DNA from: Microbulbifer guangxiensis
GTDB taxonomy: Bacteria > Pseudomonadota > Gammaproteobacteria > Pseudomonadales > Cellvibrionaceae
DNA: 64,000 nucleotides
Direction: 5' to 3'
Assembly (NCBI RefSeq): GCF_021729075.1
Contig: NZ_JAJSAQ010000001.1
Location: forward strand, 815,997 to 879,996
The stretch's first letter is position 1; each line of letters begins with the position of its first letter. A model generated the notes under the pieces. That model did no database searches, had not been told where the DNA came from, and worked only from the letters and a program-made list of their open reading frames with translations. Position numbers and translations under genes: made by a program. Below are positions 25,971 through 31,924 of the stretch, piece after piece.

Positions 25971-27575
25971 ATGTCCTCCGCACCCACTTGTGCCCAGGTA
26001 TTGATGCGCCTGCTGCGCGAATACCAAGTTGAAAAAGTTTTCGGCATCCCCGGTGTCCACACCATCGAATTGTATCGGGGCCTGCCGGGCAGTGGCCTGC
26101 AGCACGTAACCCCCCGGCACGAGCAGGGTGCCGCCTTCATGGCCGACGGTTACGCCCGCGCCAGTGGCAAGATCGGTGTCTGCTTCCTGATCACCGGTCC
26201 GGGGCTGACCAATGCCGCCACCGCCATGGCCCAGGCCTATTCCGACTCCATCCCCATGCTGGTGATCTCCGCGGTCAACCGCCGCGAGGACCTGGGCATG
26301 GGCCGCGGACGCCTGCATGAACTTCCGCGCCAGAGTGACGTGAGCCGCGGTTATTGCGTCTGGCAACACAGCGTGACCCAGGCGGAGCAGCTGCCGGAAG
26401 TCATGCACCGCGCATTCCAGCTGCTCAATTCCGGGCGCCCGGGGCCGGTACACATCGAAATCCCCATCGACCTGTTCCCCGCCCCCATGCCCGGCTCGAT
26501 GGATGATTACCGCGCGGCCCCCACAGCAGCGAGGCCCGCAGCCAGCGACGCTGCCGTCACTACTGCTGCCGAATGGCTGCAGAAGGCGGAGCGCCCGGTA
26601 ATCCTGCTGGGTGGCGGCGCTCAGGCCTGTGCCGTCGATGCCACCGCACTGGCAGACAAGCTGGCGGCACCGGTGTTCGAGTCTCTCGCTGCCAAGGGCA
26701 TCGTCGACGAGCGCCATCCGCTCTGCGGCGGCGCCAACCTGAGCTTCGATGCCGTGCGTAACCGGATTGAGAACGCCGATGTGGTTCTCGCCGTAGCAAC
26801 AGAGCTGGCGGAAACGGACCGCAATCTGGTGCGTGAGAACTACAACTTCAAGGGCAAGCTGATCCGCGTCGACATCGATGCCGGCCAGCTGGTCTGCAAC
26901 GCCAGCCCGGACCTGGCCATCTGTGCGGATGCGGCCGAGACCCTGGCCCAGCTGAACCGCGCCCTGCCCGAGGGTAACGCCGAGCGCCGGGACCAGGCCG
27001 CCGACGAGCTGGCAGAGATCCTGCAAGCGTGCCGCAAGGAGTGGTGGCCGGGTTCCGAGGAACGCTTCCCCTGGGTGCAGGCCCTGCGTGCCGCCCTGCC
27101 CGAGGATGGCGTGCTGGTTACCGACTCCACCCAGTTGGCCTACAACACCAATCATGCCCTGCCGCTGTACCGGGCTCGCAGCCATGTGACCTGCACCACC
27201 GGTTACGGCACGCTCGGCTTTGCCCTGCCGGCGGCGATCGGCGCCCGCCTTTCCACCGAACGGGATGTGGTGGCATTGATCGGCGACGGCGGTCTGATGT
27301 TTACTCTCGGCGAGCTGGCCGTGGCGGTGGAACAGGAACTGCCGCTGCCGATCCTGGTGTGGAACAACGCTGGCTATGGCGAAATCCGCGACTTCATGGA
27401 TGATGCCCAGGTGCCCCAGGAAGGCGTCAACCTGCGCACCCCGGACTTTGTGGCACTGGCCAAGTCCTTCGGCGCCGAGGGGTGCCGGATCGATCGCCCG
27501 GAACAACTGGGCCCGGCAATTGCTGAGGCGCTGTGCCGCAACACACCGACCTTTATCGAAATCACCGCGCCCTGA
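25971..27575 (+). CDS. aruI: ThDP-dependent 2-oxoacid decarboxylase, likely 5-guanidino-2-oxopentanoate decarboxylase
   Basis: This 534-residue enzyme has the acetolactate-synthase-like ThDP fold. FGIPGVHTIELYRGL, the catalytic Glu in RHEQGAAFMADGYAR and the diphosphate motif from GDGGLMFTLGELAVAVE to NNAGYGEI are all present. The wording is closest, from memory, to AruI, which turns 5-guanidino-2-oxopentanoate (from arginine transamination) into 4-guanidinobutanal. The next gene, an aldehyde dehydrogenase 23 bases downstream, fits the following oxidation. No AruH transaminase is nearby, so the substrate is an inference. It starts at the ATG at 25971. Confidence 0.78.
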   Translation: MSSAPTCAQVLMRLLREYQVEKVFGIPGVHTIELYRGLPGSGLQHVTPRHEQGAAFMADGYARASGKIGVCFLITGPGLTNAATAMAQAYSDSIPMLVISAVNRREDLGMGRGRLHELPRQSDVSRGYCVWQHSVTQAEQLPEVMHRAFQLLNSGRPGPVHIEIPIDLFPAPMPGSMDDYRAAPTAARPAASDAAVTTAAEWLQKAERPVILLGGGAQACAVDATALADKLAAPVFESLAAKGIVDERHPLCGGANLSFDAVRNRIENADVVLAVATELAETDRNLVRENYNFKGKLIRVDIDAGQLVCNASPDLAICADAAETLAQLNRALPEGNAERRDQAADELAEILQACRKEWWPGSEERFPWVQALRAALPEDGVLVTDSTQLAYNTNHALPLYRARSHVTCTTGYGTLGFALPAAIGARLSTERDVVALIGDGGLMFTLGELAVAVEQELPLPILVWNNAGYGEIRDFMDDAQVPQEGVNLRTPDFVALAKSFGAEGCRIDRPEQLGPAIAEALCRNTPTFIEITAP

Positions 27576-27598
27576 GGGGCCGCAGACGGAATGGTGTT

Positions 27599-29032
27599 AT
27601 GACTGATTTGAGCAAACTGCATACCGACAAGCTGTATATCAATGGCCAGTGGCAGGAATCCCGCGGCGGCGACCTGCATGCCGTCATCTGCCCGGCCACC
27701 GAGGAGAAAATCTGTGATGTCGTCCAGGGCACGGCCGAGGACGTCGATCTGGCCGTAAATGCTGCGCGCGAGGCCTTCAAGACCTGGCGCAATACCACCG
27801 CTGATGAACGCGCCGCCTTCCTGAACGCCATTGCCGATGGCATGGAGGCCCGCAAGGAAGAACTGATCCAGGCAGTTTCAGTCGCCCTGGGCTGCCCGGC
27901 GCACATCACCGAATGGCTGCACGTGGATGGCCCCATTTACGCGACCCGCTTTTATGCCAAGCGCGCGCACCTGATGGAAGAGACCGAGAAAGCCGGCCAC
28001 TCCCTGATCATGCGCGAGCCGGTAGGTGTATGTGGATTCATCACCCCATGGAACTACCCCCTGCACCAGTTCGTCGGCAAGGTGGCTCCCGCCATCGCCG
28101 CCGGCTGCACCATGATTGCCAAGCCTTCGGAGATGACGCCGCTGCAGGACTATGTGATGGCGGAAATCATCGACTCTGTGGGCCTGCCCGCCGGTGTCTT
28201 CAACCTGCTTCCCGGCGCCGGCCCGATCGTCGGCGCGGCCCTGTCCGCCCATCCGGATATCGACATGGTGTCCTTCACCGGCTCCACCCGTGCCGGCGTG
28301 GAAGTCGCCCGCGCAGCGGCACCGACGGTGAAGCGCGTGTGCCAGGAACTGGGCGGCAAGTCGCCGTTCATCATCACCCCGGATGCGGATCTCGAAGCCG
28401 CGGTGCGCTGGGGCTGTGAAGATGTGTTCATCAATACCGGGCAGACCTGTACGGCTCTGACCCGCATGCTGGTACCGGCAGAGCGCTACGAAGAAGCCGT
28501 GGAGATTGCCAAGCGCGTGGCCGAGGAAGTGCAGCTCGGCCAGGGTGGCGATGCCTTTATGGGGCCGCTGTCTTCCGCTCGCCAGCGCGATATCGTGCGC
28601 AGCTACATCGACAAGGGCATCAGTGAGGGCGCACGCCTGGTGACCGGCGGTGCCGAGGCGCCCGAGGGCCTGGAGAAGGGCTTCTACGTCAAGCCCACGG
28701 TCTTTGCCGACGTCAGCAACGATATGGCCATCGCCCGCGAGGAGATCTTCGGCCCGGTCACCTGCCTGATCCCCTACAAGGACCTGGACGAGGCCATCGC
28801 CATCGCCAACGACAGCGAGTACGGTCTCTCCAGCGGGGTCTGGGCCAGGGATGCCGAGAGCGCGCTGCCGGTGGTGCGTCGCCTGGAGGCGGGTCTGTGC
28901 TTCGTCAACGGCGGTGAGTTCAACTACGATGCGCCCTTCGGCGGCTACAAGCGTTCCGGCAACGGGCGCGAGTTCGGCGAGGCCGGCCTCGATGAGTTTA
29001 TCGAACTGAAATCCGTGCAGATGCCGGCATAA
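27599..29032 (+). CDS. NAD(P)-dependent aldehyde dehydrogenase
   Basis: This 477-residue ALDH would oxidise an aldehyde to its acid. It shows EPVGVCGFITPWNYPLHQF, SFTGSTRAGVEVA for cofactor binding, the general-base Glu in CQELGGKSPF, and the catalytic Cys in NTGQTCTALT. The end of the sequence has PFGGYKRSGNGREFGEAGLDEF. Coupled to the AruI-like decarboxylase, its likely substrate is 4-guanidinobutanal or a related omega-substituted aldehyde. I used the ATG at 27599; about 22 upstream codons overlap the previous gene. Confidence 0.9.
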   Translation: MTDLSKLHTDKLYINGQWQESRGGDLHAVICPATEEKICDVVQGTAEDVDLAVNAAREAFKTWRNTTADERAAFLNAIADGMEARKEELIQAVSVALGCPAHITEWLHVDGPIYATRFYAKRAHLMEETEKAGHSLIMREPVGVCGFITPWNYPLHQFVGKVAPAIAAGCTMIAKPSEMTPLQDYVMAEIIDSVGLPAGVFNLLPGAGPIVGAALSAHPDIDMVSFTGSTRAGVEVARAAAPTVKRVCQELGGKSPFIITPDADLEAAVRWGCEDVFINTGQTCTALTRMLVPAERYEEAVEIAKRVAEEVQLGQGGDAFMGPLSSARQRDIVRSYIDKGISEGARLVTGGAEAPEGLEKGFYVKPTVFADVSNDMAIAREEIFGPVTCLIPYKDLDEAIAIANDSEYGLSSGVWARDAESALPVVRRLEAGLCFVNGGEFNYDAPFGGYKRSGNGREFGEAGLDEFIELKSVQMPA

Positions 29033-29040
29033 ACCTCTGC

Positions 29041-29062
29041 GCTGCCCCCGCCCGGGGGCAGC
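29041..29062 (+). terminator. GC-rich stem-loop ending the decarboxylase/aldehyde dehydrogenase unit
   Basis: GCTGCCCCC and GGGGGCAGC form a perfect 9-bp stem with a 4-base loop 8 bases after the stop. There is no T-run, but a promoter for the next unit starts 4 bases later, which supports a unit boundary here. Confidence 0.55.
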
Positions 29063-29066
29063 CGTG

Positions 29067-29095
29067 TTGACTGTCCATTCCCGCCCCGCTATCTT
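29067..29095 (+). promoter_or_regulatory. Sigma-70-type promoter for the small ORF-kbl-tdh operon
   Basis: TTGACT (29067-29072) and TATCTT (29090-29095) are exactly 17 bases apart. Transcription would begin near 29102, giving a leader of about 196 bases before the ATG at 29298. Confidence 0.6.
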
Positions 29096-29101
29096 TCCTC
29101 C

Positions 29102-29297
29102 CGACATCAAGAGAGTGGCTGACGCCAACGCCAACCTGCCAACCGGGGCAAGGTGGTTGCTCTCTCACCGCCGAACGCGGGGAGAGAGGATGGGACTCGA
29201 TTTTCCACAAGAAAATCTCGGGTAATCCAACCGGAATCGCGAACCGCGCTTCGCAGCTTCCACGTCAGCCCTCCAAAGCTTTTACCTTGGAGGGACC
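29102..29297 (+). ncRNA. Highly structured mRNA leader, candidate cis-regulatory RNA
   Basis: The leader holds a series of hairpins. CTCTCTC (29160-29166) pairs with GAGAGAG (29182-29188) over an inner CCGC/GCGG stem. GATTTTC (29199-29205) pairs with GAAAATC (29211-29217). GGAA plus GCGAA (29233-29243) pair with TTCGC plus TTCC (29250-29261). CCCTCCAA (29269-29276) pairs with TTGGAGGG (29287-29294). An earlier GAGAG (29111-29115) can compete for CTCTCTC, so two exclusive folds are possible. The 5' part has GCCAAC three times (29123-29142). I could not match it to a riboswitch class I know. Confidence 0.55.
29269..29294 (+). promoter_or_regulatory. Hairpin sequestering the ribosome-binding site of the 71-residue gene
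   Basis: Arms CCCTCCAA and TTGGAGGG are a perfect 8-bp match around a 10-base loop. The right arm contains the only good Shine-Dalgarno (GGAGGG), 3 bases before the ATG at 29298. When folded the site would be masked, so translation should depend on opening this stem. Confidence 0.6.
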
Positions 29298-29513
29298 ATG
29301 TCCGAATCACCGAATTCCAGCACAGTATTCGTCGAAATACAGATCGCCAACCAGCGCAGCCGCACCGCCGTCCGCGCCGTGCGACAGGGTGACCGCCAAC
29401 TGCTGTGGCAGCTGCTGTTCGACACCGCGGAAGAAGCGTTAGAATTCGCCACCACCTGCCGCACCAGTGACAGACCGGTCACGGCCCACAAGGCCTGTGA
29501 GATGGCGGGATGA
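29298..29513 (+). CDS. Small conserved-looking protein, unknown function, upstream of kbl
   Basis: This 71-residue protein is not one I recognise. It has no signal peptide or membrane helix, and a soluble alpha/beta pattern (VFVEIQIANQRSRTAVRAV, then ALEFATTC). A strong GGAGGG precedes its ATG, and that site is enclosed in a hairpin. It is the first gene after the promoter and leader of what looks like an operon with kbl and tdh. It may be a regulator or sensor coupled to threonine degradation, but nothing in the sequence shows this. Confidence 0.6.
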   Translation: MSESPNSSTVFVEIQIANQRSRTAVRAVRQGDRQLLWQLLFDTAEEALEFATTCRTSDRPVTAHKACEMAG

Positions 29514-29534
29514 ACGCTAACCTTGTGTATTCGC

Positions 29535-29565
29535 CAGTGTGTCCGGGCAAATTGTGGATACACTG
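29535..29565 (+). repeat. Inverted repeat in the spacer before kbl
   Basis: CAGTGT (29535-29540) and ACACTG (29560-29565) can pair, in the 95-base gap between the 71-residue gene and kbl. The stem is short. Confidence 0.35.
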
Positions 29566-29608
29566 CCGGGCGCCACAAGCGCAACTCTGAGGAGCCAACA
29601 AGAACACC

Positions 29609-30808
29609 ATGTCCAAGTCTGAGCAATTCTTCCAGCATCTGCGCGAGGAGCTGAAGCAGATCGAGGCCGATGGCCTGTACAAGCGCGAGCGCATCATTAC
29701 CTCGCAGCAGGCAGCCGAAATCCAGGTCAACAACGAACTGCCGGTGCTGAACTTCTGCGCCAACAACTACCTGGGCCTCGCCAACCACCCGGACCTGATC
29801 GAAGCGGCGAAAGAGGGCCTGGACCAGTATGGCTTCGGCATGGCATCGGTGCGCTTTATCTGCGGCACCCAGGACATCCACAAAGCACTGGAATCCCGCC
29901 TGTCCGAATTCCTGCGTACCGAGGACACCATCCTCTACACCTCGTGCTTTGATGCCAACGGCGGCCTGTTCGAGACCCTGCTCGGCCCCGAGGATGCGAT
30001 CATTTCCGATGCACTGAACCACGCCTCCATCATCGACGGTGTGCGCCTGTGCAAGGCCAAGCGCTTCCGCTACGCCAACAACGATATGGCGGACCTGGAA
30101 GCCAAACTGAGGGAAGCAGATGCCGCGGGTGCGCGCACCAAACTGATCGCCACCGACGGTGTCTTCTCCATGGACGGTGTGATCGCAGACCTGAAGACAT
30201 TGTGTGACCTGGCCGACAAGTACGACGCCCTTGTCATGGTGGACGACTCCCACGCGGTGGGCTTCCTCGGCGAGCACGGCCGCGGTACCCATGAACATTG
30301 TGACGTGATCGACCGCGTCGACATCATTACCGGCACTCTGGGCAAGGCCCTCGGCGGCGCCTCCGGCGGCTACACCTCCGGTCGCAAAGAAATCATCGAC
30401 ATGCTGCGCCAGCGCTCGCGCCCCTACCTGTTCTCCAACTCCGTGGCCCCGGCCATCGTCACCGCCTCCCTGAAGGTGCTGGACATGCTGATGGAGGGCG
30501 GCGAACTGCGGGAGAAGCTGCAGGAAAACTCCGCCTACTTCCGCCACCGCATGACCGAGGCCGGCTTCACCCTGGCGGGGGCCGATCATCCGATTATTCC
30601 GGTGATGGTGGGCGATGCCGCCCTCGCCCAGAAGATGGCCGACAAGATGCTGGAACGCGGTATCTATGTCGTGGGCTTCTTCTACCCGGTGGTGCCCAAG
30701 GGCCAGGCCCGCATCCGCACGCAGATGTCCGCCGCGCACACCCGCGAGCAGCTGGACCGCTGCATCGATGCCTTCGTGGAAGTTGGCAAAGAGCTCAATA
30801 TCATTTAA
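29609..30808 (+). CDS. kbl: Glycine C-acetyltransferase (2-amino-3-ketobutyrate CoA ligase)
   Basis: Kbl is a PLP enzyme that splits 2-amino-3-oxobutyrate with CoA into glycine and acetyl-CoA, the second step of threonine breakdown. The 399-residue sequence follows the E. coli enzyme closely: [43 protein letters not shown] and the PLP lysine in [14 protein letters not shown]. The GAGGAG upstream is 14 bases from the ATG, which is longer than usual spacing. tdh follows after 90 bases. Confidence 0.96.

Positions 30809-30898: not shown

Positions 30899-31924
<1,026 letters not shown>

Follow-up and report, generated by a model that had tools for sequence, protein, structure and literature searches.

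The leader RNA of a 71-codon ORF that precedes kbl and tdh in Microbulbifer guangxiensis almost certainly contains a diverged aptamer of the SAM-I/IV riboswitch class (RF01725), a class for which a crystal structure is available (4L81). This assignment is made from sequence. The best explanation of the region as a whole, and one that we regard as probable, is a SAM-I/IV riboswitch that turns translation off when SAM is plentiful. The features that enter this reading are collected in Table 1, where positions are those of the window, the whole stretch of 64,000 nucleotides that was analysed. An earlier note on this DNA had described a cis-regulatory leader RNA that runs from a promoter onward and buries the Shine-Dalgarno (SD) sequence, and our results support that reading; the ligand and the switching element look different from what was proposed there, and the RNA can now be placed in a class.

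Table 1. Features of the leader and of the genes behind it, in window coordinates
Feature	Position	Strand	Description
Sigma-70-type promoter	29067..29095	+	TTGACT-N17-TATCTT; -10 box ends 8 nt before P1 base 29104
SAM-I/IV riboswitch aptamer	29099..29227	+	RF01725, 40.5 bits, E 5.4e-5, model positions 1-99 of 99
P1	29105..29192	+	CAUC 29105-29108 with GAUG 29189-29192; encloses P2, P3 and P4; invariant in 27 leaders
P2 hairpin	29113..29129	+	no internal loop; four-base loop UGAC
P2 5' strand and loop	29117..29124	+	GGCUGACG; would form one side of the proposed alternative helix
P3	29130..29157	+	carries unpaired AA and U
PK-2	29143..29234	+	P3-loop CCGG 29143-29146 with tail CCGG 29231-29234; invariant in the genus
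P4	29160..29188	+	CTCTCTC/GAGAGAG
P5	29195..29223	+	ACUC 29195-29198 with GGGU 29220-29223; inner helix GAUUUUC/GAAAAUC
Anti-P2 strand	29263..29270	+	CGUCAGCC; its final two bases also open the anti-SD
SD-sequestering hairpin	29269..29294	+	CCCUCCAA 29269-29276 / UUGGAGGG 29287-29294
71-aa ORF	29298..29513	+	no Pfam or NCBIfam match; predicted beta-beta-beta-alpha-alpha
SD-like site of kbl	29589-29594	+	GAGGAG; kbl's own
kbl, glycine C-acetyltransferase	29609..30808	+	NF005394, 717.9 bits, cut-off 460
tdh, L-threonine 3-dehydrogenase	30902..31924	+	NF003808, 626.6 bits, cut-off 380

Class and anatomy of the aptamer

When the whole window was scanned against Rfam at default settings, no match was returned; the leader is missed because its aptamer, at 40.5 bits, lies 0.6 bit below the RF01725 gathering cut-off of 41.1, which is a curated database threshold and not an anatomical feature. 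In a permissive scan of 28900-29700, RF01725 was the sole convincing match, the three others having E values of 1.2 or more, and no glycine riboswitch, thermometer or any other Rfam riboswitch was matched at E up to 5. The earlier note could place the RNA in no known class and suggested that it might sense threonine, glycine, another metabolite or temperature. The match to the SAM-I/IV class supplies the missing assignment and makes SAM, rather than threonine or glycine, the expected ligand, and temperature sensing finds no counterpart among the thermometer families of Rfam. Searches of the window's own genome found neither a match to the SAM-I model RF00162, at E up to 1, nor a match to MetJ.

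The RF01725 alignment shows that the SAM-binding core of the class is present in the leader, with AAGAG after P1 and with AA and U in P3. We take these unpaired bases of P3 to be the SAM pocket, in line with their roles in SAM-I. The core is invariant in 27 leaders of the genus, save for aptamer bases 6-7, which are AA, AC or CA. The features that mark SAM-I/IV, namely a P2 without an internal loop, a P4 and a P5, are all found, so that P4, whose absence characterizes SAM-IV, is present here. In the papers that describe these architectures (PMC6890682, PMC2864571, PMC5393176), SAM-I/IV is given the core, P3, P4, P5, PK-2 and one P2 hairpin lacking an internal loop, all as in the leader. SAM-I (S-box, RF00162) has the SAM-binding core in common with the leader and is described without PK-2, while SAM-IV, which shares the core, P5 and PK-2, is described with P2a/P2b and PK-1 and without P4 (both from PMC6890682); unlike SAM-IV, the leader forms P2 as one hairpin and has a P4. 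Differences from SAM-I/IV itself are a score below threshold, a PK-2 tail that contains no SD, a P2-complementary strand ahead of the anti-SD, and a target that consists of a 71-aa orphan ORF followed by kbl-tdh. Trausch and colleagues (2014) reportedly made PK-2 part of the SAM-I/IV switch. In the leader the expression platform looks unusual, and the genes behind the riboswitch are unexpected for the class.

Conservation was examined in 58 relatives, 37 from Microbulbifer and 21 from other families. The 71-aa ORF is found in 35 of the 37 genus genomes, and each of these same 35 has one RF01725 match on the same strand just upstream (22 of the 35 copies pass the Rfam cut-off); in the other two, G007 and G025, neither the ORF nor an RF01725 match was found. 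No match to the 71-aa protein was detected in the 21 genomes of other families, and none to RF01725 in six genomes of the window's family that belong to other genera, the latter in a search whose stricter filters lose weak matches.

Within the genus alignment, which for the anatomy comprises 27 leaders, P1, P2, P3 and PK-2 are invariant, P4 is variable and P5 covaries, with three of its four pairs changing on both sides and 89.8% of cells paired. Cells changed on both sides number 12, vs 3.9 in shuffles, and the covariation score is 0.055, vs 0.038 (none of 500 shuffles as high in either case); neither the count of doubly changed pairs (168 of 500 shuffles as high) nor that of pair types (412 of 500) stands out. 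P1, P2, P3 and PK-2, like most of the SD hairpin, do not vary within the genus and so carry no covariation there. Covariation of the SD-hairpin arms, which the earlier note had named as a check, is accordingly neutral: six of the eight pairs never vary and two vary on one side only in the 27 leaders, and in other families the hairpin has different sequences. Across 25 families, the P3 loop and tail that form PK-2 match better within loci than when swapped (0 of 20000 permutations), in a comparison where tail windows are approximate and the window's own pair was scored as CCGG/UCGG.

The promoter lies exactly where it had been claimed and is the sole promoter-like match in 28900-29700 (shuffles: mean 0.1, sd 0.4); the same scan found no terminator-like site in the leader region. 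TTGAC[T/C/G]-N17-TATCTT is present in all 25 named Microbulbifer loci and, since its -10 box is always only 7-9 nt ahead of P1, the leader RNA probably begins at the aptamer. The leader fold is more stable than that of shuffled sequences (z -2.87; 3 of 200 as good). What had been counted as four consecutive hairpins is richer than that: P1 encloses P2, P3 and P4 in a multi-helix aptamer, behind which come P5, a pseudoknot, one more hairpin and the hairpin that holds the SD. The SD of the 71-aa ORF does lie within perfect 8-bp arms, CCCTCCAA (29269-29276) and TTGGAGGG (29287-29294).

A candidate switch between P2 and the linker

It had been proposed that CTCTCTC (29160-29166) pairs alternatively with GAGAG (29111-29115) or GAGAGAG (29182-29188). 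The repeats occur at these positions, but GAGAG falls in J1/2 and at the base of P2, within the conserved core of the aptamer, and CTCTCTC forms P4 with GAGAGAG; we rejected this candidate because its bases already belong to P4 and the core. A likelier switch is the pairing of 29117-29124 with 29263-29270, which are exact complements in the window; in the genus the anti-P2 strand differs in only 3 of 27 leaders, where U replaces C and a G-U pair remains. In the mechanism that we propose, without SAM the P2 arm would pair with 29263-29270 and the aptamer would open, the SD hairpin would lose its base, and the 71-aa ORF would be translated. With SAM, the aptamer would retain P2 and leave the anti-SD free, so that the full 8-bp hairpin would hide the SD.

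For 39 loci from 23 families, the 5' arm of the aptamer was compared with the linker that leads up to the start codon, four loci with linkers shorter than 12 nt having been dropped beforehand; in L032, L083 (34-aa frame only) and L092 the start codon, and with it the end of the linker, is a guess. With one locus per family, the matched sum is -407.9 vs -291.4 (sd 15.8) for permuted pairs, and 0 of 40,000 permutations are as good. Measured against dinucleotide shuffles of the linker, complementarity is at or below the 1% level in 17 of the 39 loci and at or below 5% in 23, and 9 of the 23 families have a member at or below 1%; 22 loci miss 1%, five of six threonine-aldolase-like loci miss 5%, and for L092 as many as 890 of 1000 shuffles reach its complementarity. 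The window's own 8 bp are only modestly unusual (35 of 1000 shuffles as good). A gapped duplex score gives a weaker result, with 9 of 42 foreign arms matching the window's linker as well, partly because many arms share CUGACG. Long complementarities are found elsewhere (15 bp in L085, 11 bp in L102), and arm-linker pairs that have changed and still match occur in L032, L079, L089 and L090. Taken as a whole, we consider it likely that P2 is the switching strand. At two loci, L063 and L064, the linker complements the 5' strand of P1 (GCATCAAG/CTTGATGC) and not P2.

We folded the stretch 29099-29325 at 30 C. Left free, its ensemble (-96.9 kcal/mol) forms the P2-linker helix and leaves the SD unpaired with a probability of 0.29, while enforcing P1, P2 and P3 (-88.9 kcal/mol) lowers this value to 0.001. 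When the RNA is cut at ATG+25, the mean value in the genus is 0.06 for the whole leader vs 0.01 for the linker alone, with 26 of 30 leaders shifted as expected (window, 0.05), and in 38 other loci it is 0.25 vs 0.17, with 30 of 38 in the expected direction. With this cut the SD is almost closed in both states, so that the effect is larger or smaller according to which stretch is folded. Neither SAM nor pseudoknots are part of the energy model, so the OFF direction is drawn from the anatomy and from the usual behavior of the class; we regard a translational OFF switch as probable.

The orphan ORF and SAM-I/IV loci outside the genus

Judging from its substitution pattern, the 71-aa protein is conserved and coding: 29 orthologues differ by 355, 261 and 703 substitutions at codon positions 1, 2 and 3, respectively. 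Its fold is predicted with confidence (mean pLDDT 86.8, pTM 0.72). Comparison of this predicted fold with the PDB by Foldseek yielded no match at E up to 0.001, while a profile search against PDB sequences produced a single weak one (E 0.047). A resemblance to AP2 or integrase arm-binding domains was considered and is not supported.

Matches to RF01725 occurred in 33 of the 293 genomes searched in the order, in 3 of 369 in the class and in 19 of 398 in the phylum; each count includes the window's own genome and comes from a search whose stricter filters lose weak matches. The genes downstream vary among these loci, and in other families the riboswitch often precedes a small orphan ORF rather than kbl. 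We found a Cys/Met-metabolism PLP enzyme (L034), MetA-like proteins (L091, L094 and L099; L094, when tested, scored 459.2 bits vs a cut-off of 460.5), a DUF3293 protein followed by a MetK-like frame (L070), a MetK-like frame alone (L103) and AAA ATPases (L072, L085). Threonine-aldolase-like genes directly follow the riboswitch in L086, L095, L098, L100, L101 and L102, which represent three families that lie outside the order of the window. L098 and L086, the pair examined with Pfam, match PF01212, and three proteins tested against the NCBIfam model for low-specificity threonine aldolase reach 45.6-56.2 bits, far below the cut-off of 312, so that threonine is no more than a candidate substrate.

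Several loci show other arrangements. L066, L081, L073 and L097 have nearly no linker, and their PK-2 tail is an SD-like GGAG or GGAAG before the start codon. L074 carries tandem aptamers on the - strand (1501-1604 and 1638-1740), both above the cut-off, and in L032 the aptamer (- strand, 1501-1604) precedes a frame that is RadC-like by eye. In L103 and L088 a terminator-like hairpin and T-run, identified by eye, follow the aptamer, and control there is probably transcriptional. Proteins of 101-122 aa stand behind the riboswitch in L065, L033, L071, L069, L076, L075, L068, L067 and L061; those tested (L033, L065, L076, L061, L071 and L067) have no Pfam match, and a copy of this family from another taxonomic family, L138, has no riboswitch upstream. 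This longer family (A4) gave 14 strong matches (E <1e-20) in 293 genomes, 10 of them adjoining a riboswitch, a count that is biased because nine of these ten copies supplied the alignment. The order-wide search with stricter filters placed no RF01725 match at the remaining four copies, one of which was looked at closely. Comparisons of the 71-aa protein with the 101-122-aa proteins did not show homology: the best short match covered 13 columns (P 0.007), and a further comparison gave a probability of 1.0%.

Possible control of kbl-tdh and alternative explanations

The gene order is kept in all 25 named loci, with an aldehyde dehydrogenase upstream and then the ORF, kbl and tdh. A short GTGCCACAAGCAC-like hairpin recurs before the kbl SD (window 29514-29608; L104-L128). 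Upstream of the leader, 25971-29032 encodes a 5-guanidino-2-oxopentanoate decarboxylase-type enzyme (over its cut-off) and the aldehyde dehydrogenase (below the cut-offs listed), a neighborhood whose annotation suggests arginine breakdown.

Does the riboswitch reach beyond the ORF? The leader hides only the SD of the ORF and kbl has an SD-like site of its own, so an effect on kbl-tdh would need polarity or coupling, and the weaker step of the proposed mechanism is that kbl-tdh, on the same transcript, would follow in this way. It is therefore quite conceivable, though we do not favor it, that the riboswitch controls the 71-aa ORF alone and that kbl-tdh is a separately controlled neighbor. Besides the SD of kbl, this is consistent with the frequent small orphan ORFs behind the riboswitch elsewhere and with an ORF-kbl gap whose length, measured from the stop codon, ranges between 50 and 292 nt among the 25 named loci (125 nt in L120, by coordinates); it is long in some species and contains long palindromic inserts in L118, L119 and L121. 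Against it stand the constant company of ORF, kbl and tdh and the gap itself, in which no promoter is conserved among the 25 named loci: the best matches differ between species and score 6-9 vs 9.5 in each leader, the gap being lower in 25 of 25. On balance we lean slightly towards control of kbl-tdh by the riboswitch.

The other alternatives concern the RNA itself. The aptamer could be correctly assigned and the switch operate through P1/P5 or PK-2, the P2 complement being a by-product. The free fold, in which the 3' strand of P1 is drawn into a lengthened P5, points in this direction, as do the four loci where the partner of the P3 loop is the SD, which PK-2 would hide. In the window, however, PK-2 is separated from the SD behind it by more than 50 nt, and the matched arm-linker pairs of 23 families exceed all permutations, which makes such a switch unlikely here. 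A riboswitch of a new kind, responding to threonine, glycine or some other metabolite, would suit downstream genes that act on threonine and glycine, but the core matches the SAM-I/IV model over its full length and no other Rfam riboswitch emerged from the permissive scan, so that we regard this as very improbable. We give even less credence to an RNA thermometer whose SD hairpin melts with heat: the SD does lie inside an 8-bp hairpin, but this hairpin is GC-rich, no thermometer family was matched, and the long conserved aptamer would be left unexplained.

A SAM-I/IV riboswitch that acts on translation thus remains our preferred reading, and under it low SAM would lead to more threonine-to-glycine conversion, which would supply one-carbon units for the synthesis of methionine and SAM. 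In mouse embryonic stem cells, threonine dehydrogenase ties threonine-to-glycine flux to SAM; that link is metabolic and belongs to animals, whereas the control proposed here is exerted by RNA, in bacteria. Literature searches, in which the term SAM-I/IV itself was not searchable, found no paper linking a SAM riboswitch with threonine dehydrogenase, kbl-tdh, threonine aldolase or Microbulbifer, and none on the P2 helix of a SAM riboswitch in alternative pairing with a Shine-Dalgarno sequence.

More generally, we suggest, as a tentative proposal that may well not hold, that many proteobacterial SAM-I/IV riboswitches switch by a downstream strand that invades P2, not by PK-2, and that one branch puts threonine-to-glycine conversion (kbl-tdh; threonine-aldolase-like genes) under SAM, feeding one-carbon units to methionine synthesis. 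For a leader that was previously unexplained, the analysis offers a metabolite and a testable switch, and it points to a SAM riboswitch concealed just below the Rfam cut-off across a genus. Should switching indeed run through the P2 pairing, the class would possess at least two kinds of expression platform, one with PK-2 at the SD and another in which P2 is invaded. The small orphan 71-aa protein becomes a gene to study in SAM metabolism and, if kbl-tdh follow the riboswitch, SAM would set bacterial threonine breakdown.
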